DNA of 64,000 nucleotides, from NCBI RefSeq assembly GCF_003574735.1, contig NZ_QORW01000001.1:186001-250000 (forward strand), in the 5' to 3' direction. Source of the stretch: Dongia deserti (GTDB lineage Bacteria; Pseudomonadota; Alphaproteobacteria; Dongiales; Dongiaceae). Below, piece by piece: positions 23,949 through 61,254 of the stretch. Each line of letters starts with the position of its first letter. Position 1 is the first letter of the stretch. Below the pieces are notes generated by a model that made no database searches, had not been told where the DNA came from, and saw only the letters and a list, made by a program, of their open reading frames with translations. The translations under genes were made by a program, and so were the position numbers.

Positions 23949-24360
23949 AGCGCGCCCCTTCCGGCCGGTCGGTGGCGTAGGCGCGTGTGCGATAGCGGAT
24001 GCGCCGCCCCGCACCCTCTTCCCGCTCCAGCATGAAGCCGTCCTCCGATTTCGGCCGGTTCACGATGAAGGAGAGGCGGATCGATTCCCAGCCATGACTG
24101 GCATCAAACGCCGAGAGGCGGATGTAGCGATCGCCATAGGCCTTGCGGCAGGCCTGCAGCTCCAGCATGACGCCGGCCGCATCCTTGATGTCGAACATCG
24201 GATGGCCCCACATCTCCCAATACGTGTTGCGGGGGTGCGGATCGTCGGTGAATTCGATGTTCACCGCCCAGCCTTTGCCGAGGCAGTAGTCGATCTGGGC
24301 CGCGATCTGCTGGTCCGTGAGATCGGGCAGGAACGAGAAGGCGCCTTGTGTGATGCGCAT
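23941..24360 (-). CDS. cbbS: RuBisCO small subunit, red type, 139 aa
   Basis: Starts [19 protein letters not shown], the standard red-type small-subunit N-terminus. [13 protein letters not shown] and the C-terminal extension ([19 protein letters not shown] and beyond) complete it. Red-type small subunits have this C-terminal hairpin extension that helps hexadecamer assembly, and the 139-residue length matches. It sits 12 bases after the large-subunit stop, and its end overlaps the cbbX start. Confidence 0.97.
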
Positions 24361-24372
24361 GATGGTTTCTCC

Positions 24373-26935
<2,563 letters not shown>

Positions 26936-46544: not shown

Positions 46545-46549
46545 GGCGA

Positions 46550-47551
46550 TCACCCCACCGGATGGCGATTGAAGGCCGAGTAACGGCCAGTCACGTGATG
46601 CTCGAGCTGGCGCTCGATATCGGCGAGCAGGCTGGAGGCGCCGATGCGGAAATAGTCAGGCTCCAGCCATTCGCGCCCCAGCTCTTCCTTCATCACGAAC
46701 TGGTAGTTCAGCACGTCCTTGGCGCTGGAAATGCCGCCGGCCGGCTTGTAGCCGACCATGAAGCCGGTCCGCTCATAATAGGCGCGGATCATGCGCACCA
46801 TGATGAGCGTGACGAGCAGCGTCGCGTTCACGCTTTCCTTGCCGGTCGAGGTCTTGATGAAGTCGGCGCCGGCCATCATGCAGACCAAAGACGCACGCGC
46901 CACGTTGCGCATGGTCTTGAGATCGCCGGTCGCCAGGATCGCCTTGACGTGCGCGTTGCCGCAGGCGGCGCGGAAGTCGCGCATCTCGTCATAAAGCGCC
47001 TGCCAATTGCCGGTCAGCACATGCTCACGCGTGATGACGATGTCGATCTCCGTCGCGCCGTCGCGCACCGAGGATTCGATCTCCTTCAGCTTCACGTCGT
47101 GCGGAACGAGACCGGCGGGGAAGCCCGTGGAGACGGCCGCCACCGGAATTTCGCTGCCTTGCAGAGCCTCCACCGCCGTCTTGACGAAGCGGTGATAGAC
47201 GCAGAGCGCGCCGGTCGTGATGCGCCGATCGGCCATCCCGAGCGCTTCCAGGATATCGCGGCGGATTGGCGACTTCGCCTTCGCGCACAGACGGCGCACG
47301 CGGCCCGCCGTATCGTCGCCGTTGAGCGTGGTGAGGTCGATGCAGGTGACAGCCTTCAGTAACCAGGCGGCCTGCGCATCCTTCTTGACCGTGCGGCGCC
47401 CGGGCAGGGTGGCCACGCGCCGCTCCGCCGCCGACAGATTCACGCGGACGTCGCGCACCCAGCCGAGATCGAGCGGGCAGGCTTCATTGCGCGCCGGCAC
47501 ATTTCGGCCGGTCTCGGGACGCACCATGGGGGCGATTTTCAGTTCCGCCAT
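46550..47551 (-). CDS. deoC: Deoxyribose-phosphate aldolase, long form, 333 aa
   Basis: Class I aldolase cleaving 2-deoxyribose 5-phosphate to glyceraldehyde 3-phosphate and acetaldehyde. The Schiff-base Lys lies in DFIKTSTGKE, the second catalytic Lys in VGYKPAGGIS, and GATEIDIVITREHVL is the Asp-bearing strand. It has ~80 extra N-terminal residues compared with short DeoC, a form common in rhizobia. ATG at 47551; the gene ends next to the ALDH16 start. The neighbouring ribokinase, mutarotase and dehydrogenase fit deoxynucleoside or deoxyribose use. Confidence 0.93.
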   Translation of the reverse strand: MAELKIAPMVRPETGRNVPARNEACPLDLGWVRDVRVNLSAAERRVATLPGRRTVKKDAQAAWLLKAVTCIDLTTLNGDDTAGRVRRLCAKAKSPIRRDILEALGMADRRITTGALCVYHRFVKTAVEALQGSEIPVAAVSTGFPAGLVPHDVKLKEIESSVRDGATEIDIVITREHVLTGNWQALYDEMRDFRAACGNAHVKAILATGDLKTMRNVARASLVCMMAGADFIKTSTGKESVNATLLVTLIMVRMIRAYYERTGFMVGYKPAGGISSAKDVLNYQFVMKEELGREWLEPDYFRIGASSLLADIERQLEHHVTGRYSAFNRHPVG

Positions 47552-47696
47552 GCTGGCTCTCCAATGCTGGCGCTGCGACGAAAACGGCGCGGGCGGCCGA
47601 TCATTGCCGCGATGATACGGCCATCCTTGCCGCTCCATCGCAGTATCTCAGAATGTCATAATTCTAACAACTGTTAAAAAGGTAACATCATGCGGA

Positions 47697-48740
47697 TTAT
47701 GGCCTCTGGTCGGTGCTCGGCTTCTCCCAGAGATTGATGCCCAGGTCGACCGCATGCTGCTCGATCGCGGCCAATTCGGCTGCGGTGAAATCGAGATTCT
47801 TGAGCGCGGCGACATTTTCCTTGAGCTGCTCGACACTACTCGCGCCCAGCAGGGCAGAGGTCACGCGCTGGTCTCGCAGGGCCCAGGCAAGCGCCATCTG
47901 CGCTAGGCTCTGGCCGCGCTTCTTGGCGATTTCGTTCAACGCTCTGACGTGTGCCAGGTTCTCCGGCTTCAGATGGTCCTTTTTGAAGGACCCGCCGCCC
48001 GGCCGGTTGATGCGCGCCTCCGCCGGAACGCCATCGAGGTATTTCTCCGACAGCAAGCCCTGCGCCAGGACCGAGAAGGCGATGCAGCCGATGCCGGTCT
48101 CCTCCAGCGCGTCGAGCAGGCTGCCCTCGATCCAGCGATTGAACATGTTGTAGGACGGCTGGTGGATCAGGCAGCGCACGCCCACGCCCTGCAGCAGCTT
48201 CGCCGCCTCGCGCGTCTTGCCGGCTGAGTAAGACGAGATGCCGACATAGAGAGCCTTGCCCTGTTGCACGGCTGTCGCGAGCGCGCCCATCGTCTCCTCG
48301 AGCGGCGTGTCGGGATCGAACCGGTGCGAATAGAAAATGTCGACATAGTCAAGGCCGAGCCGCTTCAGGCTCTGGTCCAGGCTCGCCAGCACATATTTGC
48401 GGCTGCCGCCGCCTCGGCCGTATGGACCGGGCCACATGTCCCAGCCGGCCTTCGACGAGATGATGAGCTCATCGCGATAGGACTTCAGCTCCTCGCGCAG
48501 CAGGCGGCCGAAGTTGATCTCCGCACTGCCCGGCGGCGGGCCATAATTGTTGGCGAGGTCGAAATGTGTGATGCCGAAATCGAAGGCCGTGGTGACCATC
48601 TCGCGCTGCGCAGCATAAGGCGTGGAATTGCCGAAATTGTGCCACAGGCCGAGGGAGAGCACCGGCAGTTGCAGGCCGCTCTGCCCGCAGGTGCGATAAT
48701 GCATCATCTCATAGCGCTGCGAATGGGCGGTGTAAGTCAT
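47697..48740 (-). CDS. Aldo/keto reductase (YghZ/GPR type), 347 aa
   Basis: The AKR14-type start YRTCGQSGLQLPVLSLGLWHNFG is followed by FDLANNYGPPPGSAE (catalytic Asp and Tyr), DIFYSHRFDPDTPLEE (active-site His) and a C-terminal NADPH-binding segment LLGASSVEQLKENV. Family members reduce L-glyceraldehyde 3-phosphate and methylglyoxal. The ATG at 48740 has GGAG upstream. It precedes deoC by 145 bases in the same direction and may be the first gene of the pentose set, or separate. Confidence 0.9.
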   Translation of the reverse strand: MTYTAHSQRYEMMHYRTCGQSGLQLPVLSLGLWHNFGNSTPYAAQREMVTTAFDFGITHFDLANNYGPPPGSAEINFGRLLREELKSYRDELIISSKAGWDMWPGPYGRGGGSRKYVLASLDQSLKRLGLDYVDIFYSHRFDPDTPLEETMGALATAVQQGKALYVGISSYSAGKTREAAKLLQGVGVRCLIHQPSYNMFNRWIEGSLLDALEETGIGCIAFSVLAQGLLSEKYLDGVPAEARINRPGGGSFKKDHLKPENLAHVRALNEIAKKRGQSLAQMALAWALRDQRVTSALLGASSVEQLKENVAALKNLDFTAAELAAIEQHAVDLGINLWEKPSTDQRP

Positions 48741-48907
48741 GGTGAGATTCTCCGGCGAGGGGATGAGTAGAAGTAGCGGTGAAAGGCGGATAAGGGCAAC
48801 CGCGAACCAATTAGGGACATCGCCAAATTCTTCCTGGAATCGGTTGCGGTTTTCCGCGAGCGCCCTAGTGTTGTCCTTCGCTGTTCGCCGCGAGAATGAG
48901 GGAATTC

Positions 48908-49888
48908 ATGAAAGTCATCATCACCGGAGGGGCGGGCTTCATCGGGCTGCAACTGGCGCGCCGCCTGACAGCACTCGGCGCGCTGACAGGCCCCTCCGGG
49001 AAGTCGGAGCGCATTGACGAGCTCCTGCTGTTCGACATGGTGGTGCCGGACGGGCGGCCCTCAGGGCTCGATGATCGCGCAAGGTTCGTAGCGGGCGAGA
49101 TTTCCGACAAGGCGACGGTGAAGCGGCTGTTCGATCGGCCGGATATCTCCGTCTTCCACTTGGCCTCGGTGGTGAGCGGCGGCGGAGAGCAGGACTTCGA
49201 CCTCGCGATGCGAGTCAACCTGGACGGCAATCTGCATGTGCTGGAATCGGCGCGCGCATTGGGCTCCAAGCCACGTGTGGTGTTCGCGAGCTCGATCGCC
49301 GTGTTCGGCGGCAAGACAATGCCCAAACACGTCGGCGATACCACCAAGCAGACGCCGCAGACCACCTACGGCATGACCAAGGCGATCGGCGAGCTGCTGG
49401 TCAATGACTACACGCGCAAGGGCTTTATCGACGGCCGTTCGGCACGTCTGCCGACCGTCATCATCCGCCCGGGCAAGCCGAACAAGGCGGCCTCCAGCTT
49501 CGCGAGTGGCGTGTTCCGCGAGCCGCTGAACGGCGTCGAATGCGTGCTGCCGGTCGGCACCGAGGCCGTGATGCCGCTCGCCGGATACCGCACCATCGTC
49601 GAGTGCTTTGTGAAGCTGCATGAAGTCGCTGGCGAGAAGCTGGGCGAAGACCGCGCGGTCAGCCTGCCGTCTCTTGACGTCACGGTCGGCGACATGATCG
49701 CGGCCCTGAAGCGCGTTGCCGCCGACCGCAGGCTCGGCGAGATCCGCGTGGAGAAGGACCCAGTCATCGAACGCATCGTCGCCACCTGGCCGGTCGGCAC
49801 CACCTATGAACGCGCCCTGTCGCTCGGCTTGCCAAAGGACCCGGACCTGGATGCGATTGTGAAGGCCTACATCGAGGACTTTCTCTGA
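48908..49888 (+). CDS. denD: DenD-type D-erythronate dehydrogenase (NAD-dependent epimerase fold), 326 aa
   Basis: Extended SDR with GGAGFIGLQLARRL near the start and Y-x3-K in TTYGMTKAIGE. SSIAVFGGKTMPKHVGD and IRPGKPNKAASSFASGV are typical of the DenD family that oxidises D-erythronate at C2. The ATG at 48908 has GAGGG upstream and gives the normal start MKVIITGG; an ATG at 48896 adds four residues. OtnC and OtnK-like genes are on the opposite strand just beyond the terminator, the set described for tetronate use. A related acid such as D-apionate is also possible here. Confidence 0.88.
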   Translation: MKVIITGGAGFIGLQLARRLTALGALTGPSGKSERIDELLLFDMVVPDGRPSGLDDRARFVAGEISDKATVKRLFDRPDISVFHLASVVSGGGEQDFDLAMRVNLDGNLHVLESARALGSKPRVVFASSIAVFGGKTMPKHVGDTTKQTPQTTYGMTKAIGELLVNDYTRKGFIDGRSARLPTVIIRPGKPNKAASSFASGVFREPLNGVECVLPVGTEAVMPLAGYRTIVECFVKLHEVAGEKLGEDRAVSLPSLDVTVGDMIAALKRVAADRRLGEIRVEKDPVIERIVATWPVGTTYERALSLGLPKDPDLDAIVKAYIEDFL

Positions 49889-49901
49889 CACGGGCTCACT
49901 T

Positions 49902-49934
49902 TCGTCATGGTCGTGCTTGGCACGACCATGACGA
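49902..49934. terminator. Perfect 14-bp hairpin between convergent denD and otnC
   Basis: TCGTCATGGTCGTG (49902-49915), five-base loop, CACGACCATGACGA (49921-49934). It lies in the 61-base gap between the converging genes and would serve as a bidirectional terminator, although there is no clean T-run on either side. Confidence 0.6.
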
Positions 49935-49949
49935 GGTAAGAGTGTCACA

Positions 49950-50579
49950 TCACGAATTCGGAAAGCGCTGGCGCAGGTCCGCGACTTGCTCCGGCGTCAA
50001 ATAGCGCGTCGGCCGGCCGTGCAGCAGCAAGTAGAGCCGCGCCGTCTCTTCCAGCTCCTCGATCGCATTGACGGCGGCGCTGAGCGATGAGCCGGCAACC
50101 ACGGGGCCATGATTGGCGAGCAGGACGGCGGAATGTTTGGCGGCCAGTTGGCCGACGGCTTCGCCTAAGGTTGGATCGCCAGGCGCGTAGTAAGGAATGA
50201 GCGGCAGCTTGCCAACGCGCATCACGTAATAGGCGGTGATGGGCGGCAGCACATCGTCCGGATCGATGCCGTCCAGGCACGACACCGCAACCGAATGCGT
50301 GGAATGGAGATGCACGACGGCACCGGCGCCGGCACGCTCGCGGTACATCGCAAGATGCAGGAAGCTCTCCTTGGTCGGCGCATCGCCCGAAATGTGCTTG
50401 CCTGATCCATTCAGCTTGGAGAGCCGCGCCGGGTCGAGGGCACCGAGCGAGACATTGGTCGGCGTCATCAGCCAGCCATCGTCGGTCTTGACGCTGATGT
50501 TGCCGGAGCTGCCGAAGGTTAGGCGCCGCTCGAATATGGAGCGGCCGCTAGCAACCAGGGAGTCTCGGGCGTCCGTCAT
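49950..50579 (-). CDS. otnC: OtnC-type 3-oxo-tetronate 4-phosphate decarboxylase (class II aldolase fold), 209 aa
   Basis: Metal-binding histidines in AVVHLHSTHSVAV, with ILANHGPVV-like LLANHGPVVAGSS, and the N-terminal SSGNISVK. All are class II aldolase/adducin-family traits; members in this context act as decarboxylases giving dihydroxyacetone phosphate. The start ATG overlaps the otnK stop (ATGA), so translation is coupled. A 3-oxo-isoapionate 4-phosphate decarboxylase (OiaC type) is a close alternative that sequence alone cannot exclude. Confidence 0.85.
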   Translation of the reverse strand: MTDARDSLVASGRSIFERRLTFGSSGNISVKTDDGWLMTPTNVSLGALDPARLSKLNGSGKHISGDAPTKESFLHLAMYRERAGAGAVVHLHSTHSVAVSCLDGIDPDDVLPPITAYYVMRVGKLPLIPYYAPGDPTLGEAVGQLAAKHSAVLLANHGPVVAGSSLSAAVNAIEELEETARLYLLLHGRPTRYLTPEQVADLRQRFPNS

Positions 50580-51859
50580 CGCAACCTGTCGATCGCCTTG
50601 AGGAAGAAGTCTTCGGCCCCAAAATTCCCGGATTTGAGCGCGAGCGCAAGCTTCGGCTCGCCTAGCGACAGGGTCGCGGGAATGCCGGGATCGATCTGCG
50701 GCCCGATCTGCAGCGCGCGGATGCCCACCGCCTGCACGACGGCCCCAGAGCTTTCGCCGCCGGCGACTACCAGGCGCCGCACGCCCGCTTTCACCAGCCC
50801 ATCCGCCAGCGTCGCCAGCGCATGTTCAACCAGCGATCCCGCACGCTCGCGGCCAAGCTTGGCCTGGATGGTCTTCACCGCTTCGGGCGGCGCACTCGCA
50901 TAGACCAGGACGGGTGAGGTTTCCAGTTCGGCCGTGGCCCAGGCCAAAGCCTCTGCCACTACGGCGTTACCGCGCTCTGCGAGATCCAATGGATCGAGCT
51001 TGAGCGCGGGATGTCGCGCTCGCATCCGCTCGACCTGCGCCAAGGTCGCAGGCGAGCAGGAACCGGACAACACAGCCGCTTTGCCGCCGACGGGCGGCAG
51101 CTCCTCTTCGCCCGCTCTGCGCGCGAGCAAACCGGCACGGCGGAAATTCTCCGGCAGTTCCATCGCCGCGCCTGATCCGCCGGTCACCAACGTGAGATCG
51201 GCGCAGGCCGCGCCCAGGCGCCGCAGATCCCCATCCTCGATCGCATCCACGACGGCGTAGGCGACATCATTGCGCCGCAAGGTCTCGAAAGCATTGCGGA
51301 TTGCAGCCGGTCCTCTCCGCACCGTGCCGACGGGAACCAGACCGACGGACGCCCGGGTCTGACGCCCCAGCACACGCACCAGATTGGCATCGGTCATGGG
51401 TGTCAGCGGATGATTGCGCATCGGTGAATCGGACAGCAGCACCTCGCCGACAAAGAGATGGCCGAGGTAGATCGTGCGGCCGGTCTCGGGAAAGGCCGGG
51501 CAGACAGTGGCGAAGTCCGTCTTCAGCTCCGCGCGCAAGGCGTCGGTAACCGGGCCGATATTGCCCTCGTCCGTCGAATCGAAGGTCGAGCAGTATTTGA
51601 AATAGATCTGGCGCGCGCCTGCCTGCCGCAACCACCGGCAGGAGGCGACCGATTGCTCCACCGCTTCAGCCACCGGCGCCGTGCGGGATTTCAGGGCTGC
51701 GACGATCGCTTCGGCATCGGCCGGCACATCAAGGCCATCGGGCATGCCGATGATCTGGATCGTGCGCATGCCATTGCGCACCAGCGTGTTGGCGAGGTCC
51801 GTAGCGCCTGTGAAATCGTCGGCAATGCAGCCGAGCAGCAGTGCACCGTTCTGCGCCAT
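50576..51859 (-). CDS. otnK: OtnK-type four-carbon acid-sugar kinase (DUF1537), 427 aa
   Basis: N-terminal domain GCIADDFTGATDLANTLV with the acidic substrate-binding DDFTGA motif, YFKYCSTFDSTDEGNIGP, and a C-terminal nucleotide-binding domain with VAGGESSGAVVQAVG (glycine-rich). It phosphorylates a 3-oxo or 2-oxo tetronate at C4. It overlaps the lactonase gene upstream by one base (TGATG) and otnC downstream by four. The DUF1537 family also contains 3-oxo-isoapionate kinases, so the substrate is open between erythronate- and apionate-derived acids. Confidence 0.88.
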   Translation of the reverse strand: MAQNGALLLGCIADDFTGATDLANTLVRNGMRTIQIIGMPDGLDVPADAEAIVAALKSRTAPVAEAVEQSVASCRWLRQAGARQIYFKYCSTFDSTDEGNIGPVTDALRAELKTDFATVCPAFPETGRTIYLGHLFVGEVLLSDSPMRNHPLTPMTDANLVRVLGRQTRASVGLVPVGTVRRGPAAIRNAFETLRRNDVAYAVVDAIEDGDLRRLGAACADLTLVTGGSGAAMELPENFRRAGLLARRAGEEELPPVGGKAAVLSGSCSPATLAQVERMRARHPALKLDPLDLAERGNAVVAEALAWATAELETSPVLVYASAPPEAVKTIQAKLGRERAGSLVEHALATLADGLVKAGVRRLVVAGGESSGAVVQAVGIRALQIGPQIDPGIPATLSLGEPKLALALKSGNFGAEDFFLKAIDRLR

Positions 51860-53826
51860 CAGGCTCCCACAATCCGTGCAACGGCATAGGGTGCCAGCTC
51901 GACCGTGCCGACCTTCTTCAATGTCTTGCCGGCTTTGCCAAGATAGCCCGCGTCCTTGGTCGCGGCGACGAAGCTGCCTTCATCGAGCATGTGCAGCAGC
52001 GCACCGCCGCTGAAGCCCGAGATCTTCGCTTTCTGAGTCTCGCCAGTCAGATTGGCAAGCCATAGAACCGGACCGGACTTGGCTCGGTAAGCGAGCGCCG
52101 CGATCTTGCCGGGCGCGGCGGACTTCGCGTGCACCAACTTGCTGCCGCTGGCACCGGTGAGGCTGGCGATCACGTGGTAGAGCGGATAAACCGCCGGGCC
52201 GCCCACGCCGTCGAAATAGGGCTGCGCATAGTTGGTGCGGCGGTAGATCATGCCGGCCGGACCTGTCGCAGCGCCGAGCGTGATCGCCGATAGGCCACCC
52301 GGCGCGAGTGCGGCGACATAACCAAGAGTCCACGCGGCCCCGAACAGCCCACGCTGGCGCGGGTCCATGTTCGACAGGCACACGCGGCCATTGTCGGGAT
52401 TCGGCGCAGTCGATGCGCCGTAGGGGTTGAGGCGTGCCGGGATGCTGCTGGGCCCTACGCAATAATCCTTGCCCTTGACGAAGGCCTTGGCCGATTGCGT
52501 GACATAGGGCAACGCCTCCAGCGTCTCCATCACGGAGATATCATCGGCCGCATGCACGATCGGACACGTGGTGTGCGTGACGAAATCGAGCAGCTCCGCC
52601 GGCGGACGCTTGCGGTTGAGTTCCGTGAAGAAGGCGAAAGTGCCGCCGCCCAGGCGCACGCCGGGGAACGCCGCGCGCGCCGCTTTGTAGATCTGCTCCA
52701 GCGTCGGGCCAGCTGGTCCCTTGCTGCCCGGCAGGACGCCGCGCAAATCCATGGCGGGGGAAATCGCGATTGCGGCCGGCATCAGCTTGGCGCTCTTGAT
52801 CGCCGCGGAGATCGGCGCGAGCTCCGCCGCCGGCGCCTGCTCACCGGGCAGGATGACTTCCAGGATCACGTCGGCCTTGGTTGCCTGGCCCAGCTTCTCA
52901 TAGACGCTGAGCGTGCCGGCCAATCCGCCGCGCCGTGCATCGACCTCGCAGACGAGATGCTTGGGTGCCGCCGCCGCAATGTGGGGTGCGTTGACCAAGG
53001 CGGCATCGGCTTCGGCCTCGGGAATCGCAACGCCGATCGCCGGCAATGTACCGCCACTGCGGCCAAGCGCAATCTCGACCGGCTTGGCGCGGCCAGCCGC
53101 CTTCGGCCGCGGGAGCTTGCCGGAGAAAGTGAGGTTGACCGATTGCTTGATCTCCACGCCTTTCGGCAGCGTGTAGGGCCAGGGTTCCGCCAACGGGCGG
53201 ACATAGGTCTTGAAGGATGAATCCGTCCAGTTCCGATGATCCTCCATCTCGAACTGATCGCCTTCCATGCGGCAGGTTGCGAAGATGCCCGGCGCCGCCT
53301 TGTGCCGCAGCGATCGGATGGCGAAGAAGGGCTGGACCGGATTGATGATGGCGGGGAACTTGTCTTTCACCTTGCGGCCATCGACGTGCTCGACCTCGAC
53401 CGGATAGCCGGCGACACCGGTCAATGGATGCAGCACGATGAATCCGGTGCGATTGGTGAGGAAGTCTGTCTCCGGCAATGCCGTGGCATTGAACCGCAGC
53501 GCGCCGTCGGCTCCGCAGGAAATCTCCGCATGGTAGGTCAGTAAGCGCTTGGCATCCTTGCAGCGCGCGTCGTAGGTCACGCGGAAATCGCTCTTGCCTT
53601 GCCTGATCTTGAGATTGCTGATCTCCGGAGTGAAGGTGCCCCAGTTCTCATCCCGCACCAGGAAGGCGATGGCACGCAGCACCTCGGTCTCGCCGAGCTT
53701 GATATAACGGAGCGCACCATTATCGAACACAGCGGACAAAGCACCCGCCTGCAAGGTGCGGAGCTTGGGCTCGGGCACCTCCGTGCCGAACAGCTTGATG
53801 GCGCGTTTCGGCTTAATGGGTCGCAT
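51859..53826 (-). CDS. Large lactonase-like protein (D-apionate lactonase family candidate), 655 aa
   Basis: Three parts can be told apart: an N-terminal beta-rich region (1-~255, with VRDENWGTFTPEISNLKIRQ and EMEDHRNWTDSSFKTYVRPL), a middle TIM-barrel-like region (~260-560, with VRLGGGTFAFFTELNRKRPP and VHAADDISVMETLEAL), and a C-terminal beta domain (~575-655). I recall this layout for D-apionate lactonase (ApnL) proteins, often annotated hypothetical; it could also be another glycosidase-like hydrolase. I chose the ATG at 53826 (GGGGAG 8 bases upstream); a GTG precedes it. It lies 19 bases after the ABC ATPase and is coupled to otnK. Confidence 0.6.
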   Translation of the reverse strand: MRPIKPKRAIKLFGTEVPEPKLRTLQAGALSAVFDNGALRYIKLGETEVLRAIAFLVRDENWGTFTPEISNLKIRQGKSDFRVTYDARCKDAKRLLTYHAEISCGADGALRFNATALPETDFLTNRTGFIVLHPLTGVAGYPVEVEHVDGRKVKDKFPAIINPVQPFFAIRSLRHKAAPGIFATCRMEGDQFEMEDHRNWTDSSFKTYVRPLAEPWPYTLPKGVEIKQSVNLTFSGKLPRPKAAGRAKPVEIALGRSGGTLPAIGVAIPEAEADAALVNAPHIAAAAPKHLVCEVDARRGGLAGTLSVYEKLGQATKADVILEVILPGEQAPAAELAPISAAIKSAKLMPAAIAISPAMDLRGVLPGSKGPAGPTLEQIYKAARAAFPGVRLGGGTFAFFTELNRKRPPAELLDFVTHTTCPIVHAADDISVMETLEALPYVTQSAKAFVKGKDYCVGPSSIPARLNPYGASTAPNPDNGRVCLSNMDPRQRGLFGAAWTLGYVAALAPGGLSAITLGAATGPAGMIYRRTNYAQPYFDGVGGPAVYPLYHVIASLTGASGSKLVHAKSAAPGKIAALAYRAKSGPVLWLANLTGETQKAKISGFSGGALLHMLDEGSFVAATKDAGYLGKAGKTLKKVGTVELAPYAVARIVGA

Positions 53827-53845
53827 CACGATCTCTCCCCTATTC

Positions 53846-54937
53846 TCAAATCACGCGATTGCTCTCTGGATCGATCAAGACGGCTCGGTTCATGTCGAGG
53901 TCGAGGTCGATCCGCTCGCCCGGCCGCTGCACGTCGTGCGATTCCAGCTCCGCCACGGTCGGAACGCCGCCCAGCGGGAAGGTGATATAGGCGCGCGAGC
54001 CGGTCGGTTGGACCAGCTCGACCGTCACGCCGAGGCGCTGGTGCCCCGGCCGGTCGCTACCATTGGCGCGCGTCACATATTGCGGTCGAAGCCCGAGAAC
54101 GACGGATTGTCCGTCGGAGAAGCCGTTGCGCTGCCGCGGCGGCAAGGCGAGGCTAATATTGTCCCCGAACTTGATCGCCCAACCGCCCCCCGATTGCGTG
54201 AGTTGCGCCGGAATGAAATTCATCTGCGGCGAGCCCAGGAATCCCGCCACGAAACGCGTTGCCGGACGCTCATAGAGATCGAGTGGCGTGCCGGCCTGCT
54301 CGATCAGCCCCTCGCGCAGCAGCACGATCCGATCCGCGAGGGTCATCGCCTCGATCTGGTCATGGGTCACATAGATCATGGTGGTGCCCAGCTCCTGGTG
54401 CAGGCGCTTGATCTCGCTGCGCATCTCGTCGCGCAACTGGGCATCGAGGTTGCTCAAGGGCTCGTCGAATAGGAACAAGCGCGCATTGCGCACGATGGCA
54501 CGACCGATGGCGACCCGCTGCCGCTGGCCACCCGACAGCTGGCGCGGCAGGCGGTCCAGCAGCGGCGTGATGCCGAGCATGTCGGCGGCGCGCCGGACCC
54601 GGGTCTCGATCTCCGCCTGAGGCGTCTTGCGAGCGCGCAGACCGAACGCGATGTTCTCGAACACGTTCATGTAGGGATAGAGCGCATAGTTCTGGAACAC
54701 CATGGCGATGTCGCGGTCGCGCGGGCGAACATAGTTCACCACGCGTCCGCCGATCTCCAATGTCCCGCCGTCGGGTGTCTCCAATCCCGCAATGGTGCGC
54801 AGCAAGGTGGACTTGCCGCAGCCGGATGGGCCGACCAGGACCGTGAACTCGCCCGAGGCAACTTCGAGGTCGATGCCGCGCACCGCCTGAACGCCACCAT
54901 AATGCTTGTGGAGATTGGTGATCTTGAGATCGGCCAT
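53846..54937 (-). CDS. Sugar ABC transporter ATP-binding protein (UgpC/MalK type), 363 aa
   Basis: Walker A GPSGCGKST, Q-loop FQNYALYPYM, signature LSGGQRQRVAIGRA, Walker B LFLFDEPLSNLDAQ and H-loop YVTHDQIEAMT are all present. A C-terminal OB-fold regulatory domain follows (~235-363, VVLGLRPQYVTR), as in MalK-type importers. It powers the importer whose two permeases and binding protein lie immediately upstream (15-base gap to the permease). Confidence 0.95.
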   Translation of the reverse strand: MADLKITNLHKHYGGVQAVRGIDLEVASGEFTVLVGPSGCGKSTLLRTIAGLETPDGGTLEIGGRVVNYVRPRDRDIAMVFQNYALYPYMNVFENIAFGLRARKTPQAEIETRVRRAADMLGITPLLDRLPRQLSGGQRQRVAIGRAIVRNARLFLFDEPLSNLDAQLRDEMRSEIKRLHQELGTTMIYVTHDQIEAMTLADRIVLLREGLIEQAGTPLDLYERPATRFVAGFLGSPQMNFIPAQLTQSGGGWAIKFGDNISLALPPRQRNGFSDGQSVVLGLRPQYVTRANGSDRPGHQRLGVTVELVQPTGSRAYITFPLGGVPTVAELESHDVQRPGERIDLDLDMNRAVLIDPESNRVI

Positions 54938-54952
54938 ATGCCCTGCCCCGCT

Positions 54953-55795
54953 CTACCCTTTGACTGCGCCCATGGAGATGCCGCGCACCAGATAACGCTG
55001 CAGCGTCGCGACCGTGAAGAATACCGGAATGGTGCCAAGCACCGACATGGCCGCGATCTTGGCCCAGAAATTCGACTGGCCGCCGAAATAGTGCGTCACC
55101 TGCACGGTGTAGGTGATGACCTCCGTTCGGGTCAGAACCAGCGCGAATAGAAAATCGTTCCAGGCGAACACGAATGTGAAGACGGCGGTTGCAAACAGCC
55201 CCGAGCGCACCATGGGGAACACCACCTTCCACAGCACTTCCCAGCGCGTGCAGCCGTCGACCAACGCACTTTCCTCCAGCTCCAGCGGAAGATCCTCGAT
55301 ATAACCGCGCATCATCCAGATGACGTACGGCAGGCTGAACGCGGTGTAGAGGATGATGAGGCCGTGATAGGAATCCACCCAGCCGAAGAACACGTAGAGC
55401 AGGAAGATCGGAAATGCGATCGCGATCGGCGGCATCATGCGCTGCGAGATGATCCAGACCGCGAGGTTCTCGCCGCCCGTCTTGAACCGCACCAGGCTGT
55501 AGGCGCAGATGGTGCCCAGCACCATGGCGATCACCGTGCTGACGCCCGCCAGCACCAGGCTGTTCCATACCGTCACCGCGTCGCCGTCCTTGAACAGCAC
55601 GCGGTAGTTCGCGAACTGGATGCTCTCCGGATACCAGACCGGCGGGAAGGCGAATATCTCCTCCGGCGTCTTGAACGAAATGATGAACAGCCAATAGACG
55701 GGAAACAGGAACACGATCGTCAGCGCGAGCACGGCGAGGTAACGCAGCGCGAGGACGGTGCCAGGCCGGCGCAGGAAGGGCGCTTGCGGGGTCAT
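54953..55795 (-). CDS. Sugar ABC transporter permease, MalG type, 280 aa
   Basis: Six predicted spans with the cytoplasmic EAA-like loop EESALVDGCTRWEVLWKVVFPMVRSG contacting the ATPase. An N-terminal LAVLALTIVFLFPVYWLFIISFK span is typical of MalG-type proteins. Its ATG overlaps the MalF-type gene stop (ATGA). Confidence 0.93.
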   Translation of the reverse strand: MTPQAPFLRRPGTVLALRYLAVLALTIVFLFPVYWLFIISFKTPEEIFAFPPVWYPESIQFANYRVLFKDGDAVTVWNSLVLAGVSTVIAMVLGTICAYSLVRFKTGGENLAVWIISQRMMPPIAIAFPIFLLYVFFGWVDSYHGLIILYTAFSLPYVIWMMRGYIEDLPLELEESALVDGCTRWEVLWKVVFPMVRSGLFATAVFTFVFAWNDFLFALVLTRTEVITYTVQVTHYFGGQSNFWAKIAAMSVLGTIPVFFTVATLQRYLVRGISMGAVKG

Positions 55796-56715
55796 TTCGC
55801 CAACCCCATGCGGCGGATGGCCCAGACCACGATGACGGTGAGCATCGCGATTACCAGGAAGGCGATGGCGGCGGTGTAGCTGGTCTCGAACTGCTGAAAG
55901 CCCTGGACGTAGGTATAGATCGAGATCGTCTCCGTCATGGTGCCCGGCCCGCCCTGGGTCAGCGCCCAGATCACGTCGAAGATGCGAACGAGATCGAGGC
56001 CGCGGATCAGGATGGCGATCGCCATGACCGGCCAGATCGACGGCAGCACGATCTTGAAGAAGGTACGCCAGTAGCCCGCGCCGTCAATCTCCGCCGCCTC
56101 AGTCAGCGACTTGTCCACGTTCGACAGCGCAGCCAGCAGGATCAGGAACATGAACGGCGTCCACTGCCACACTTCGCAGATGAAGATGGAGGGGTAGACG
56201 AGATTCGGATTGACGGTCCACAGGATGGTCATAGGCTCGCCCGCGAACCACCCGATGATCTGGTTGATCGGCCCATAGCGATTGTCGAACATCAACCGCC
56301 AGGTGGCGCCAGCCACGATCGGCGAGATGACCGTCGGCAGAACCAGCAGCGACACGAAGATCTGCCGGCCCGGCATGCGTTCCAGGAACAATTGCGCCAT
56401 CAGAAGCCCGAGCACGAGCTCCAGCGGCAGGGCGATGATGGTGATGAGCGCCGTGTGGAGCAGCGCCTGCCACAAGCGCGCATCCTTGAAAAGTTGCGCA
56501 TAGTTGATGAAACCGGCGAAGGAGGTATCGACCTCCATCATGGTGATGTTCTGGAAACTGACGATCAGCGAATAGATCAGCGGGAACAGGCCCACCAGCA
56601 GCAGCAGGAAGATCGCTGGCGCGATCAGCCAGTATTTGAAGAAGCGGTCGGGCGCATGGCCGGCGGGCGCGGCCACGCCGCCCGCCGCCATCGCCGATGT
56701 TGCACTCTCGCTCAT
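55792..56715 (-). CDS. Sugar ABC transporter permease, MalF type, 307 aa
   Basis: Six spans, starting LIAPAIFLLLLVGLFPLIYSLIVSF, and the EAA-type loop EAAEIDGAGYWRTFFKIVLPSIWPVMAIA. GGPGTMTETISIYTY is typical of this family. The ATG at 56715 was preferred; an in-frame ATG at 56745 and longer starts are possible. A hairpin (56756-56782) lies between it and the binding-protein gene. Confidence 0.93.
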   Translation of the reverse strand: MSESATSAMAAGGVAAPAGHAPDRFFKYWLIAPAIFLLLLVGLFPLIYSLIVSFQNITMMEVDTSFAGFINYAQLFKDARLWQALLHTALITIIALPLELVLGLLMAQLFLERMPGRQIFVSLLVLPTVISPIVAGATWRLMFDNRYGPINQIIGWFAGEPMTILWTVNPNLVYPSIFICEVWQWTPFMFLILLAALSNVDKSLTEAAEIDGAGYWRTFFKIVLPSIWPVMAIAILIRGLDLVRIFDVIWALTQGGPGTMTETISIYTYVQGFQQFETSYTAAIAFLVIAMLTVIVVWAIRRMGLAK

Positions 56716-56755
56716 GCGCGTGACGCATCCCCCTGAGGTCGCCATCACCGCTGCG

Positions 56756-56782
56756 CCCCGCCCTGCGCGAGGCAGAGCGGGG
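56756..56782 (-). terminator. Stem-loop between binding protein and permease genes
   Basis: CCCCGCCCTGC (56756-56766), five-base loop GCGAG, GCAGAGCGGGG (56772-56782), an 11-bp stem with one wobble pair. There is no T-run, so it is more likely an RNA-stabilising or attenuating hairpin that keeps the binding-protein mRNA abundant than a full terminator. Confidence 0.5.
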
Positions 56783-56810
56783 GAGCGGTGTTGGGTGACT
56801 GCCGAACGCT

Positions 56811-58247
56811 CTATTGCGGATAGGCGCCCGACTTCGCTGCCCAAGCCTGATACACGGCCTTTTGCTTGTCGACCCCGATTTTCGCGGTGATCGCGTCCCA
56901 CTCGGCGGCGGCAGCGTCGAGGATGGACTTGGCGTCTTCACCGGCCCATAGCTTGCTGATTGCCTGGCGCAGGACCTCTTCGTACTTATCGGTCTGGAGC
57001 AGAGACAGATCGAGCAGGCCGGTCTTAGCCCCTTCGCTCAGCGTAGCCAGGTAGTCCTTCGCGTCGGGCCACTTGGCCAAATATTCCGGGCTGGTGAAAT
57101 GCGAATCCCGGAACGGATCGCGCAGAGCGTAGGGCAGCTGCACGCGCTGGAGGCTGACGTCTTCGCTGTTCAGCCACTGGATGAAGAGATAGGCCGCGTC
57201 CTTGTTCTTGCTGGTCGAGGCGACCGACAGCGCGAAACCGGCCGCCAGCTCCGGATGGCCGCCCGGCGGCAGGGCATAGCCAACCTTGCCGGCGATCTGC
57301 GATTTCGGCACCCAGCTCAGCACTTCCTGGTCGGTGCCGTATCCGGCGGCCCAGCGGCCGTAGGGCGGCCAGGAGATGGTCATGGCCGTCTGCCCCTGCA
57401 GGAACGCGGCGAGGTTCTCGACGAAGCCCCACTGCTCCACGCCCGGCGGCATGAACTTGTTCTCGGCCCGCATGCCTTCGAGCACCTTCACGCCGACGTC
57501 GCTGTTGATGGTCGCCTTCATCGTCTCGGCATCGAAGAACTTGCCGCCTTCGGTGCGGAACCGCTCCTGGAACATGAACATGCCGTACGGTGGCTGGCGG
57601 AAGAACGCGGCGCCGTACATGTCCGGCTTGTACTTGTCGGTCAGGAACTGGCCGATCTCGGCGAACTCCTTCCAGGTCTTGGGCGGCGCGAGGTCGTAGC
57701 CGTGCTTGGCCTTGAACTCATCCTTGGTCGCCTGGTCGCCGAAGATGTCCTTGCGGTAGTAGAAGACGAAGACGTCGCCGTCATCCGGGAAGCCGTAGAT
57801 CTTGTCGCCCACCTTCATCTGGTTGTCGCGATAGGTCGGGGCGATGGTTTGCAGCTCCGCCGCATAACCGTATTTCTCGACATAGGGATCGAGCACCTCC
57901 AGGGCGCCGGCATTGGCAAGATCGGGCATCCAAGCGGGCACCACGTTGAGCGCATCATAGGCGCCGGTGCCGGCCCGGTATTCCTGCATGATCTTGGTGA
58001 ACATCTCGGCGATCGGCAGCTCAACCACCTTCACCTTGATGCCGGTCAGCTCTTCCCACTTCGGACCCGAGAAGTTCAGGGGATCCAACGCCTGCAAGCC
58101 TGCTTCCCAGGCGATGGTGATGGTCTGCCCGCGATATTTCTGGGCCTCCTTCACGGCGATCTCTGCCGCGCTCTCGGCCATTGCAGCGGACGCCCACGAC
58201 ATCGCCAAGCCGGCGACGGCGCCCACCCATGCCACTGTCTTGATCAT
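56811..58247 (-). CDS. Extracellular solute-binding protein family 1 (sugar/polyol ABC importer), 478 aa
   Basis: A signal peptide (residues 1-24, IKTVAWVGAVAGLAMSWASAAMA) is followed by a large periplasmic binding fold: IAEMFTKIMQEYRAGTGAYDALNVVPAW, the hinge and GQTAMTISWPPYGRWAAGYG. Family-1 proteins bind mono- to oligosaccharides and polyols. It is the first transport gene of the leftward unit and stands 97 bases after the dehydrogenase; that gap may hold an internal promoter. Confidence 0.93.
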   Translation of the reverse strand: MIKTVAWVGAVAGLAMSWASAAMAESAAEIAVKEAQKYRGQTITIAWEAGLQALDPLNFSGPKWEELTGIKVKVVELPIAEMFTKIMQEYRAGTGAYDALNVVPAWMPDLANAGALEVLDPYVEKYGYAAELQTIAPTYRDNQMKVGDKIYGFPDDGDVFVFYYRKDIFGDQATKDEFKAKHGYDLAPPKTWKEFAEIGQFLTDKYKPDMYGAAFFRQPPYGMFMFQERFRTEGGKFFDAETMKATINSDVGVKVLEGMRAENKFMPPGVEQWGFVENLAAFLQGQTAMTISWPPYGRWAAGYGTDQEVLSWVPKSQIAGKVGYALPPGGHPELAAGFALSVASTSKNKDAAYLFIQWLNSEDVSLQRVQLPYALRDPFRDSHFTSPEYLAKWPDAKDYLATLSEGAKTGLLDLSLLQTDKYEEVLRQAISKLWAGEDAKSILDAAAAEWDAITAKIGVDKQKAVYQAWAAKSGAYPQ

Positions 58248-58344
58248 GATCTCTCTCCCATTTACGGCGATCGCGCCGTGGCGCTCGCCTTGTTATCCCT
58301 TGCCGGCCTCCCCGACCGGGTAGGGATTCCTTGCAGCCGCGGCG

Positions 58345-59394
58345 CTAAGCGCCGAAGCGGTTGCGATAATTGTCCAGCCGCGTCTTGAAGGGCGGTTGAT
58401 CCAGAACAGCGCGATTGACGACGCCGCGTGGCACGCGGCCGTGCTGGATGTCCAGAACTGCTTTGACGTCCGCTGCGCCGTTGCCGGCGAAGCACTGATC
58501 CGTCCAGCACAGAGCGTGCGGCGCCAGGATCACGTTGTCGAGTTTCAGGATCGGATCATCCGGTGCCGGCGGCTCCACCTCCAGCACGTCCAGGCCAGCC
58601 CCCGCGATGCGCCGTTCGCTGAGCACTTTGGTCAGCGCCGCCTGATCGACGATCGGCCCGCGCGCGGTGTTGATGAGATACGCCGTCGGTTTCATGAGCG
58701 ACAGGCGTTCTGCATTGACCAGGTGTCGAGTCTCCGGTGTCAGCGGGCAATTGACGCACAGCACGTCGGAGCGCCGGAACACATCCTCCAGCCCCACCAG
58801 CTCGATCCCAAGCTCTGCAGCGATCGCCTTGTCGGCCAATGGATCGTGCGCGATGAATTTCATGTCGAACGGCTTGGCCAGGCGAAACAGCTCCGCCCCG
58901 ATATTGCCGATGCCGACGGAACCCAAAGTGCGCCCCACCAGCCCCACCCCCATGTGCTCGGCGCGCTTGTTGAAGGTCTCGGGTCCGCCGCGCGTCAGCT
59001 TGTCCTTGATCATCAGCTTGCCGGTCAACGCCAGCATGAACGTGATGATCGAGACGGCAACGGGCCGGCGCACGCCGTCGGGCGTAATCACGAGGGGAAT
59101 ACCCGCTTCGGTGCAGGCCGGAACGTCGACATTGTCGTAGCCGACGCCGAAGCGAGCTACCACCGAGAGGCGGCCATTCGGATGGATGCTCTCGCGCGCG
59201 AACCGCGGCATCAGCAGAATGAGCGCGTCGAAATCGGCGATCTGGTCCGCGCGAACTGGATTGGCGTTCTCCAGGAACGCGACCTCGACGCCCGGCGCCG
59301 ATTGCAGCGGCGCAAGATCGAAGTCCGGGAAAGTCGGCGAACCGTCCGCCTTCCTGAAATCGCCTGACAATGCGACGCGGAACGTGTCGGCCAT
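58345..59394 (-). CDS. D-isomer 2-hydroxyacid dehydrogenase, 349 aa
   Basis: Rossmann motif GRTLGSVGIGNIGAELFRLAKPF, the catalytic Arg in NTARGPIVDQ, the Glu in the LDVLEVEPP block, and His in LAPHALCWTD, all standard for the family. It oxidises or reduces a 2-hydroxy acid with NAD(P). I used the ATG at 59394; a GTG at 59403 is possible. It follows the HpcH-type aldolase by 12 bases and suggests a hydroxypyruvate-like or glyoxylate-like intermediate. Confidence 0.92.
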   Translation of the reverse strand: MADTFRVALSGDFRKADGSPTFPDFDLAPLQSAPGVEVAFLENANPVRADQIADFDALILLMPRFARESIHPNGRLSVVARFGVGYDNVDVPACTEAGIPLVITPDGVRRPVAVSIITFMLALTGKLMIKDKLTRGGPETFNKRAEHMGVGLVGRTLGSVGIGNIGAELFRLAKPFDMKFIAHDPLADKAIAAELGIELVGLEDVFRRSDVLCVNCPLTPETRHLVNAERLSLMKPTAYLINTARGPIVDQAALTKVLSERRIAGAGLDVLEVEPPAPDDPILKLDNVILAPHALCWTDQCFAGNGAADVKAVLDIQHGRVPRGVVNRAVLDQPPFKTRLDNYRNRFGA

Positions 59395-59406
59395 TTCTGC
59401 CACCGT

Positions 59407-60183
59407 CTATTTGCAGCCGGCGCGAAGCTGGTTCACCGCTTCGGTCAAGGCACCCTGCAGCACCCAGACATCGCCCGAGTAACAGATGAAGTCGAAGCCC
59501 CACTTGTAGTAGTCGATACCAGTCTTGACGTCCGGCACCAGGCGGCCCGTCGCCTTGTTGTGCTTGCGGCAGGCCGCGACCACGCGGTCGATCGCGCCGG
59601 TGAACTTGGGATTGCCGAACTCGCCCGGAATGCCGAGCGATACCGACAGGTCGAAGTGCCCGACCCACAGGCAATCGACGCCGTCGACCGCCGCGATGGC
59701 CTCGGCGTTCTCGACGCCTTCCGCGGTTTCGATCTGGCAGAACAGAGTCGTGCGCTTGTTGGCACCGGCCAGCTTCTCCGGCACAGGCCCTGCGGTGTAG
59801 CCATCATGCGCCACGCCGAGCGCCACACCACGCTTGCCTTCCGGGTAGTACTTCATGCAATCGAGGATCGCCCGCGCTTCCTTGGCATTGCCGACCATCG
59901 GCAGCATGATGCCTTCGGCACCCATATCGCAGGCGCGCGCGATGTGGTGATATTCCTTGGACGGCACGCGCACGACTGGCGCGATGTCGGCTGCCTCGAA
60001 GTAGCGGATGGCGCTCTTCACCGTCTCGTAGCCGAATCCTGAATGCTCCAGATCGAACAGGACGAACTCGCAGCCGGCATTCTTCATGATGTGGCCGATG
60101 CCAGGTGTCGCAAACTCCACAATGAAGTGGCCCAGCTTCAACCCCCTGGTACGCGACATCGCTTTCAAGCCGGTCTCGGCCAT
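59407..60183 (-). CDS. HpcH/HpaI family aldolase, 258 aa
   Basis: Metal-dependent class II pyruvate aldolase fold: FVLFDLEHSGFGYE (with Glu/Asp residues), VRVPSKEYHHIARACDMGAEGIMLPMVGNAKEA and CQIETAEGVENAEAI, the metal-ligand Glu segment. It cleaves 2-keto-3-deoxy acids to pyruvate or hydroxypyruvate and an aldehyde. The ATG at 60183 has GGAGG five bases upstream; an adjacent ATG at 60186 is nearly as good. Confidence 0.9.
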   Translation of the reverse strand: MAETGLKAMSRTRGLKLGHFIVEFATPGIGHIMKNAGCEFVLFDLEHSGFGYETVKSAIRYFEAADIAPVVRVPSKEYHHIARACDMGAEGIMLPMVGNAKEARAILDCMKYYPEGKRGVALGVAHDGYTAGPVPEKLAGANKRTTLFCQIETAEGVENAEAIAAVDGVDCLWVGHFDLSVSLGIPGEFGNPKFTGAIDRVVAACRKHNKATGRLVPDVKTGIDYYKWGFDFICYSGDVWVLQGALTEAVNQLRAGCK

Positions 60184-60219
60184 CATTTCCTCCCTGTTCC
60201 TTGCCGAGGATGGCAGTCT

Positions 60220-60528
60220 TCAGGCTGCCGATCCCTCGCACACCAAATTCAACTCCGTAACTTTCTTGTCTGCCACGAGATCGGCGCTCGCCTCGTTGAA
60301 GCGCGCGAAGTGGCTGGTGTTCACATGCGCCTGGAACGCGGCGCGATCGTCATAGATCTCATAGAGCACGATGCGGTCGGTGTCGCTCGGCGATTCCAGC
60401 ACATCGAAGCGGCGGCAGCCGGGCTCGTCACGGCACGATGCTCGGGCATTTTCGTCGATCAGGCGGCGAAAGTCGCTCCTGGCGCCCGGCTTCAGGCGGA
60501 AATCCACCATGATCACGAAGCCGTTCAT
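60220..60528 (-). CDS. ABM-domain (antibiotic biosynthesis monooxygenase-like) protein, 102 aa
   Basis: Starts MNGFVIMVDFRLKPG and has the ferredoxin-like dimeric fold typical of ABM proteins: FDVLESPSDTDRIVLYEIYDDRAAFQAHVNTSHFARF. Such proteins are usually small accessory enzymes or stress-related monooxygenase folds; role here unknown. Its start overlaps the GntR stop (ATGA). Confidence 0.82.
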   Translation of the reverse strand: MNGFVIMVDFRLKPGARSDFRRLIDENARASCRDEPGCRRFDVLESPSDTDRIVLYEIYDDRAAFQAHVNTSHFARFNEASADLVADKKVTELNLVCEGSAA

Positions 60529-61232
60529 TCCGCGCTCCCCCTCACCCGCCAATAGAGATCGGCGACCTGATCGAGGTGCGCGCGGATCACGCGCTCGGCG
60601 CGATCCGGATCGCGCGCGGCGATCGCCTCGTAGATCTGGGCATGATACGTGAAGGCGATCTCGTTCTGGCCGGGATAGGTCAGCGTGACGTGGCGCTGTT
60701 CCACCAGCCATTCGGCGATGGCGGCATGGATCGATTCGAAGATCGGATTGCCAGGGATGACCGCCAGGATGTGGTGGAACTCGACGTCGGTGCGCTCGAA
60801 CTTCGCGGTATCGCCCAGCGACCGGCGGTTCGCCTCCAGCGCCTCGCGCAGGTCGCGCAACTCCTCATCGGTCGCGTGCACTGCCGCGTAGCGCGCCAGG
60901 CCACTCTCGAAGAAAGAGCGCGCCTGCTGGAAGTGCCGCACGCCGTCGGGCTGGGCCAGCAGATAGCGCGCGGTCCCGGCCAGGGATTCGACCACGACCT
61001 TCGGTGTCGGCCTGGTGGCGCGCGCCCGTCCCCCCGAGCGCAGCTCCACCAGCCCCATCTTCTGCAGGTGGAACAAAGCCTCGCGCACCGCAGGACGGCC
61101 GACGCCGAATTCGCGCATCAGATCGCGCTCCGAGGGCAATTGCTCGCCGGGCGCAACAGCCTGGTCCCGGATGCGCTGCTCCAGGTGCTGGGCGATCTCC
61201 TCGTAGAGCTTCCGACGGCGGATGACGGTCAT
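60525..61232 (-). CDS. GntR/FadR-family regulator of the sugar-acid cluster, 235 aa
   Basis: N-terminal winged helix (LYEEIAQHLEQRIRDQAVAPGEQLPSERDLMREFGVGRPAVREALFHLQKMG) followed by a helical FCD-type ligand domain with metal-site His residues (HHILAVIPGNP, YHAQIYEAI). An inverted repeat (61234-61254) ends 2 bases before its start codon. It is the first gene of the leftward 60-50 kb set and probably represses all of it until an uptake product binds. Confidence 0.93.
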   Translation of the reverse strand: MTVIRRRKLYEEIAQHLEQRIRDQAVAPGEQLPSERDLMREFGVGRPAVREALFHLQKMGLVELRSGGRARATRPTPKVVVESLAGTARYLLAQPDGVRHFQQARSFFESGLARYAAVHATDEELRDLREALEANRRSLGDTAKFERTDVEFHHILAVIPGNPIFESIHAAIAEWLVEQRHVTLTYPGQNEIAFTYHAQIYEAIAARDPDRAERVIRAHLDQVADLYWRVRGSAE

Positions 61233-61233
61233 T

Positions 61234-61254
61234 TTGGTATACCTGTCATACCAA
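61234..61254. promoter_or_regulatory. Inverted repeat operator at the GntR gene start
   Basis: TTGGTAT (61234-61240), seven-base spacer, ATACCAA (61248-61254), a perfect inverted repeat. It contains GGTAT elements as used by FadR-type repressors and starts 2 bases upstream of the GntR start codon, so it could mediate autoregulation. Confidence 0.65.

Follow-up and report, generated by a model that had tools for sequence, protein, structure and literature searches.

A Dongia deserti gene cluster joining an ApnL-family lactonase, a conserved dehydrogenase-aldolase pair and 3-oxo-tetronate enzymes: a candidate D-apionate route

The window analysed here, a stretch of 64,000 nucleotides from the alphaproteobacterium Dongia deserti (contig NZ_QORW01000001.1, positions 186,001 to 250,000), holds a twelve-gene cluster built around a protein of the D-apionate lactonase (ApnL) family. 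With it are encoded a D-isomer-specific 2-hydroxyacid dehydrogenase (HADH), an HpcH/HpaI-type aldolase (HpcH), a sugar ATP-binding cassette (ABC) importer and the tetronate enzymes DenD, OtnK and OtnC. Among 53 ApnL loci compared, HpcH and HADH accompany the lactonase at 26 and the D-apiose dehydrogenase ApsD does so at 14, the two sets never being found together (0/53). Known modules, the ApnL family and the 3-oxo-tetronate route, are present in a conserved combination with an aldolase-dehydrogenase pair, for which we tentatively propose a role in the debranching of D-apionate.

Gene content and organisation of the cluster

Eleven of the genes form a single minus-strand run from 61232 to 49950, in the order gntR-abm-hpcH-hadh-SBP-perm1-perm2-ATPase-apnL-otnK-otnC, while denD lies on the plus strand and converges with otnC. 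All the named open reading frames are intact. Neighbours in the run overlap by no more than 4 bp or are separated by gaps of no more than 97 bp, figures that depend on the start codons which we picked for the ABM protein and the first permease. Because the overlaps and gaps between these co-directional genes are so small, the run is likely to be one transcript. The features are as follows.

61234..61254, minus strand: palindromic operator TTGGTATGACAGGTATACCAA with GGTAT direct repeats, directly before gntR (pattern search and comparison of relatives)
60525..61232, minus strand: GntR/FCD regulator, NCBIfam 'NanR' subfamily (288.9 bits, cut-off 260)
60220..60528, minus strand: ABM-domain protein of 102 residues with a distant likeness to LsrG (family scans)
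59407..60186, minus strand: HpcH/HpaI-type aldolase (PF03328), active-site positions kept (family scan and alignment)
58345..59403, minus strand: D-isomer-specific 2-hydroxyacid dehydrogenase, HADH (family scan and alignment)
56811..58247, minus strand: solute-binding protein (SBP) of the importer, SBP_bac_1 (family scan)
55792..56745 (start 56745 or 56715), minus strand: importer permease 1, named by position and relatives, not by family-library scan
54953..55795, minus strand: importer permease 2, named in the same way, not by family-library scan
53846..54937, minus strand: importer ATPase of MalK/UgpC type (UgpC-subfamily model, 452.6 bits, cut-off 432)
51859..53829, minus strand: ApnL-family protein of 656 residues, probable aldonolactone lactonase (NF049900, 689.4 bits, cut-off 750)
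50576..51859, minus strand: OtnK, 3-oxo-tetronate kinase (615.6 bits, cut-off 350)
49950..50579, minus strand: OtnC, 3-oxo-tetronate 4-phosphate decarboxylase (321.1 bits, cut-off 250)
48896..49888 (start 48896 or 48908), plus strand: DenD, D-erythronate dehydrogenase (378.1 bits, cut-off 325)

Every component named in an earlier, sequence-only reading of this DNA (a GntR/FadR regulator with its operator, ABM protein, aldolase, dehydrogenase, importer, lactonase-like protein, OtnK, OtnC and the converging DenD) is present in its place, and its view of a dedicated import-and-catabolism unit is upheld. The operator pattern, allowing up to three mismatches, occurs at a single place on the two strands of the 64 kb, where 0.05 matches would be expected; one of 100 shuffled sequences also gave two matches. 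A similar site, read by eye, precedes the gntR relative in 12 of 14 other loci, the exceptions being L019 and L102 (L numbers denote loci and G numbers genomes).

For the lactonase-like protein the only NCBIfam model matched was that of D-apionate lactonase (NF049900), over nearly the full length. A relative from Rhizobium etli CIAT 652 scores 1063.8 bits on this model and is 43.7% identical to the window protein.

OtnK, OtnC and DenD were assigned through curated NCBIfam equivalog models with cut-offs, all three of which were exceeded, so that the tetronate part of the cluster stands as first read. DenD, OtnI, OtnK and OtnC together make up the D-erythronate route. The DenD-OtnK-OtnC route proposed earlier was correct as to the three enzymes, but it also requires the 2-oxo-tetronate isomerase OtnI. 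None was seen inside the cluster, and a genome search placed an OtnI match, unlinked, on contig 33 (333.9 bits, cut-off 325). The otnK product is the sole OtnK-type kinase found in the window genome; its identification as OiaK was ruled out by a score of 150.3 of 700 bits on the OiaK model. A study of Brucella describes an operon holding the D-erythronate route genes together with a gene of the major facilitator superfamily, MFS (PMC10580937). The window shares DenD, OtnK and OtnC within its cluster and OtnI within its genome, all above their cut-offs, but has an ABC importer where Brucella has the MFS gene. Relative to the D-erythronate route, the window cluster adds ApnL, HADH, HpcH and ABM, its OtnI is unlinked and no LtnD was seen in the cluster.

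Comparison of ApnL loci

The 53 loci comprised 25 from genome contigs, five annotated plasmids (out of 236 plasmid records with a match), eight from genomes of the window's family, the window itself and 14 found in surveying 387 alphaproteobacterial genomes. The genome-contig loci were taken from 29 and, since that search began from window ApnL peptides, they favour the window clade. Four loci (L011, L022, L036 and L028) were dropped as occupying the same places as L078, L077, L081 and L041, respectively, as were the short first pieces L001-L010 and L046-L073; the near-identical L020 and L041 were each counted. The count leaves out G311 and G377, whose ApnL matches each exceed the cut-off, as well as L107 and L108, where ApnL occurs with ApsD, and L118, where it occurs with DenD, OtnK and OtnC. 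Absences carry little weight at loci such as L013, L015, L021, L025, L033 and L039 because contig ends cut them.

When the same gene set was sought by synteny, the core of HpcH, HADH and ApnL recurred, with Otn genes collinear at three relatives. At two of these (L075 and L076) the order GntR-ABM-HpcH-HADH-importer-ApnL-OtnK-OtnC-OtnI-DenD is preserved, and at L079 a collinear operon runs from the core through ApnL, OtnK and OtnC to end at OtnI; the OtnI proteins of L075 and L079, the two tested, lie above the cut-off. The run stops at ApnL on Mesorhizobium ciceri pMESCI01 and a Bradyrhizobium CB82 plasmid, with no further annotated sugar-acid enzyme nearby. The 26 loci with HpcH and HADH include 17 with ABM, 20 with SBP, nine with OtnK, eight with both OtnK and OtnC, six with DenD, four with OtnI and four with ApnO; none has ApsD or OiaK and one has a partial match to a RuBisCO-like protein. 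OtnK is present at 16 of the 53 loci, fewer than the HpcH-HADH pair, which is therefore the commoner partner of the lactonase, a point which, like OtnI, the sequence-only account of the gene set had left out.

The association extends to whole genomes. Of the 387 surveyed, 19 have ApnL, 15 an HADH orthologue (E ≤1e-120) and ten have both (p 1e-11, phylogeny ignored); leaving out the window's family, the corresponding figures are 15, 13 and eight (p 7e-10, phylogeny again ignored). Within the family itself (17 genomes) ApnL occurs in nine and the HADH orthologue in seven, all of them among the nine. At the HADH loci lacking ApnL (L087-L091, from five of the 15 HADH genomes) no clear pathway was found.

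In a maximum likelihood tree of 51 ApnL rows the window protein falls in a clade of 23 rows (support 99/99), of which 19 have HpcH and/or HADH and the remaining four are truncated by a contig end on the side concerned. Eleven ApsD-bearing rows, including R. etli, constitute a separate clade (100/100). Two loci with DenD, OtnI, OtnK, OtnC and a ribose-type importer (L080 and L082) share a branch of their own (100/100) outside the window clade, and four apnO-bearing loci (L014, L018, L023 and L032) are nested within it.

Neither HpcH nor HADH reached any NCBIfam equivalog cut-off, the best such score for HpcH being 144.6 of 368.8, and in plasmid records their relatives are annotated merely as 'aldolase/citrate lyase family protein' and 'NAD(P)-dependent oxidoreductase'. 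Alignment of HpcH with GarL shows retention of the His, Arg and metal-ligand positions, and HADH shares the usual active-site positions with phosphoglycerate dehydrogenase and glyoxylate reductase. HpcH has PF03328 and the positions named in common with the pyruvate aldolases GarL, HpaI and RhmA, but it scores far below the equivalog level, carries motifs of its own across 32 sequences (EHSG, AHD.Y and GHFDLS) and has no identified dehydratase partner. In the 12 cluster genes, of which the ten other than the permeases were scanned, no dehydratase acting on sugar acids was recognised, and the second branch ending in a 2-keto-3-deoxy acid, suggested earlier, accordingly finds no counterpart in the cluster. 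The conserved HADH-HpcH pair points instead to oxidation at C2 followed by aldol cleavage. As to ABM, a role as plain substitute for OtnI was ruled out because the two co-occur at L075, L076, L079 and L081.

A gene whose product combines a flavin adenine dinucleotide (FAD) oxidoreductase with a GCV_T domain that binds folate is found close to HADH or ApnL at L081, L088, L089 and L099 (domains shown for the last three), a possible link to C1-folate metabolism. At L099 (11497-14315) partial matches to ApnO (24% of the query) and OiaX (41%) separate HpcH from a second copy of ApnL, apparently what is left of an apiose-type cluster next to the HADH/HpcH core. A gene with the D-serine dehydratase/alanine-racemase fold (PF14031, PF01168) follows the cluster at L014 (13887-14984); it is also found at L015, L018, L021 and L023 and, farther away, at L032, that is, in the apnO-bearing subgroup and its near relatives.

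Substrate, proposed route and alternatives

The earlier suggestion that a lactone or branched acid such as D-apionate enters here is partly favoured by the genomes of relatives, which make D-apionate or its lactone the likeliest substrate. At the four apnO-bearing loci, a PF16896 gene lies divergently beside the core, with 76-77% identity to its counterpart in the R. etli apiose cluster. It matched no NCBIfam model, and we presume the label 'ApnO' from context. The binding proteins of these loci are 75-78% identical to that of the window. Each of the four genomes has OiaX above the cut-off and OiaK at another locus, where no ApnL, ApsD or ApnO was found, and each has one ApnL match, that of the core. 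Similarly, G399 and G400 (loci L016 and L017) possess a cluster ApnO-RbsBAC-ApsD-OiaX-OiaK without ApnL, their sole ApnL match again being the core's. G013, from the window's family, has an OiaK-like gene next to an OiaX-like gene (449.9 of 700 bits) in addition to the collinear operon. A search of solved relatives of the window binding protein gave no ligand, the nearest being trehalose/maltose-type binders. Import of D-apionate or D-apionolactone, which we infer from this context, is moderately supported.

In the window genome no match to ApnO was obtained with the R. etli protein as query, and the sole match to the model of the RuBisCO-like decarboxylase OiaX is the organism's own form I RuBisCO; ApsD was not found in the cluster, to which that search was limited. 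As neither ApnO nor OiaX was found, D. deserti probably does not isomerise and decarboxylate D-apionate in the published way. We propose instead that the GntR-controlled operon would import D-apionate or D-apionolactone through the MalK-type ABC importer, that the ApnL-type enzyme would open the lactone and that HADH would oxidise D-apionate at C2 to 2-oxo-apionate. D-Apionate and D-erythronate have the same C2 configuration, and the HADH family acts on D-2-hydroxy acids. OtnI could not shift the ketone of 2-oxo-apionate, because there is no hydrogen at C3. As 2-oxo-apionate is a 4-hydroxy-2-oxo acid, however, HpcH would split it in a retro-aldol reaction that frees one hydroxymethyl branch as formaldehyde and yields 2-oxo-tetronate, on which OtnI acts. 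This isomerase, encoded elsewhere in the window genome but within the operon in three relatives, would yield 3-oxo-tetronate for phosphorylation by OtnK, and OtnC would decarboxylate the product to dihydroxyacetone phosphate (DHAP); DenD would let D-erythronate enter this tetronate sequence. A published account describes HpcH-family aldolases that take hydroxypyruvate as donor and RhmA taking formaldehyde as acceptor in vitro (PMC7610986). The scheme employs every enzyme of the cluster except ABM. Its HADH and HpcH reactions and the order of its steps are our interpretation, and we offer the whole, from apionate import through HADH/HpcH debranching to DHAP by the Otn enzymes, as a tentative first choice.

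A number of observations weigh against it. The score of the window ApnL, 689.4 bits, is under the NF049900 cut-off of 750, as are all nine ApnL matches among the 17 family genomes. In G399 and G400 the binding protein shares just 47% identity with that of the window. Alongside the core, M. ciceri (G405) and G403 hold a complete D-apiose cluster that includes an ApnL of its own, and lactone opening can also be spontaneous or due to other lactonases. The apnO-bearing loci retain HADH and HpcH, which the scheme leaves unexplained. G015 lacks OtnK while having the core, DenD and OtnI, and G081, G323, G398, G402 and G409 have neither an OtnK match nor OiaX above the cut-off (completeness 99 for G015, 100 for G081 and 98 for G323, with no figure for G398, G402 and G409). 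Three HpcH relatives surround ApnL/HADH at L092 (342-12051) and at L096 (763-6136), which could signify two cleavages, down to hydroxypyruvate. Finally, ApnL occurs with DenD, OtnI, OtnK and OtnC but without HpcH or HADH at L080 and L082, favouring erythronolactone as the substrate there.

The last of these arrangements, together with L118, also speaks for a second explanation, in which the cluster serves D-erythronate or D-erythronolactone: ApnL would be a tetronolactonase, DenD, OtnI, OtnK and OtnC the main route to DHAP, and HADH, HpcH and ABM would handle a side substrate. The equivalog scores of DenD, OtnK, OtnC and the remote OtnI fit this, as does the overlap of otnK and otnC with apnL in a single run. 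It is nonetheless doubtful, since the ApnL proteins of L080 and L082 branch outside the window clade, the steadier partners of ApnL are HpcH and HADH rather than the Otn genes, and apnO, OiaK and OiaX occur in genomes of the same clade as the window. Alternatively HADH, HpcH and ApnL might be self-sufficient, C2 oxidation being followed by HpcH cleavage, perhaps twice, to hydroxypyruvate and formaldehyde or glycolaldehyde, with apionate, tetronate or a linear pentonate as substrate and the Otn genes as a separate erythronate branch. The six core-bearing genomes lacking OtnK anywhere (G015 and the five listed with it above), the triple HpcH copies, the core standing alone on the M. ciceri and Bradyrhizobium CB82 plasmids and the closeness of HADH to glyoxylate reductase and phosphoglycerate dehydrogenase are all consistent with this. 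Most of these genomes, however, have a single HpcH at the locus, and OtnK and OtnC directly follow ApnL in the window and, among the 26 HpcH/HADH loci, at eight with OtnC (nine with OtnK); we regard self-sufficiency as unlikely.

A further possibility arises from the fold of ApnL. A sequence search for related solved structures gave no matches, and an AlphaFold2 model was obtained from an alignment of 23 sequences (mean pLDDT 89.5, pTM 0.91). Its residues ~247-656 match enzymes of glycoside hydrolase families GH30, GH79 and GH51 (Foldseek E 3.5e-15), the best structural match to the barrel giving Z 26.5 and a root mean square deviation of 3.7 over 333 residues at 13% identity; identities across the matches shown are ~8-18%. 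The protein might therefore be a glycosidase that cleaves an imported glycoside inside the cell, with the remaining enzymes degrading the freed acid, and the nearness of the SBP_bac_1 protein to trehalose/maltose-type binders would suit such a role. Enzymes of clan GH-A, however, carry their catalytic Glu pair where barrel strands 4 and 7 end. By strand count, those strands of the ApnL model end without an invariant Glu; the predicted barrel (residues 247-656) resembles that of the clan while the usual pair is seemingly absent. Columns invariant in 23 apiose- and window-type ApnL sequences include E324, E403, N405, R406, H426, D429 and D430, candidate functional positions in the alignment. The full-length match to the lactonase model and the high score of the R. 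etli relative on it likewise argue against a glycosidase, which we consider very improbable; the model suggests rather a glycosidase-like barrel put to other use.

Neighbouring genes and relation to known apiose routes

Beside denD, on the minus strand (44160-48740), is a run of an aldo/keto reductase, DeoC (147.3 bits, cut-off 117.3) and a double aldehyde dehydrogenase. The DeoC/aldehyde dehydrogenase pair recurs by the cluster at L077, L078 and L013, by OiaK/OiaX at L113 and L114 and after OtnK-OtnC at L116; at L112 DeoC alone lies beside OiaK/OiaX, at a contig end. Elsewhere in the window (23025-25926, minus strand) two genes encode a RuBisCO large subunit of form I type (802.5 bits against a cut-off of 438) and CbbX (521.7 against 459.25). 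The small-subunit-like open reading frame that separates the two matched no NCBIfam model at 1e-20; upstream, transketolase- and aldolase-like frames were read by eye. This region is a Calvin-cycle operon.

Apiose is a branched sugar of pectin and many plant glycosides. Its oxidative route, reportedly established by Carter et al. in 2018, runs through ApsD, ApnL, ApnO, OiaK and OiaX. The R. etli CIAT 652 cluster for that route and the window cluster have an ApnL-family lactonase in common; the window cluster, by contrast, is without ApsD, its genome is without ApnO or OiaX, its kinase is OtnK and not OiaK, its importer is of a different type, and HADH, HpcH and ABM are added. In the apiose acid routes described so far, RuBisCO-like proteins act on 3-oxo-isoapionate 4-phosphate (PMC6302742). 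Open-licence literature on apionate gave the published gene set, and subscription papers may mention an HpcH/HADH neighbourhood; in open-licence literature, nothing was found on an erythronolactone lactonase, and a search for apiose with formaldehyde and aldolase returned apiose just once, in a reference list.

It is possible, though we say so with slightly more reserve than for the scheme itself, that the cluster represents a further D-apionate route without ApnO or a RuBisCO-like protein, with ApnL, HADH and HpcH as an alphaproteobacterial debranching module that would convert a branched C5 acid to a linear C4 acid and hence DHAP. A gene set that replaces the RuBisCO-like steps beside this family of lactonases yields testable predictions of what the HpcH aldolase and HADH act on, and release of formaldehyde, if true, would be an unexpected way of removing a sugar branch.

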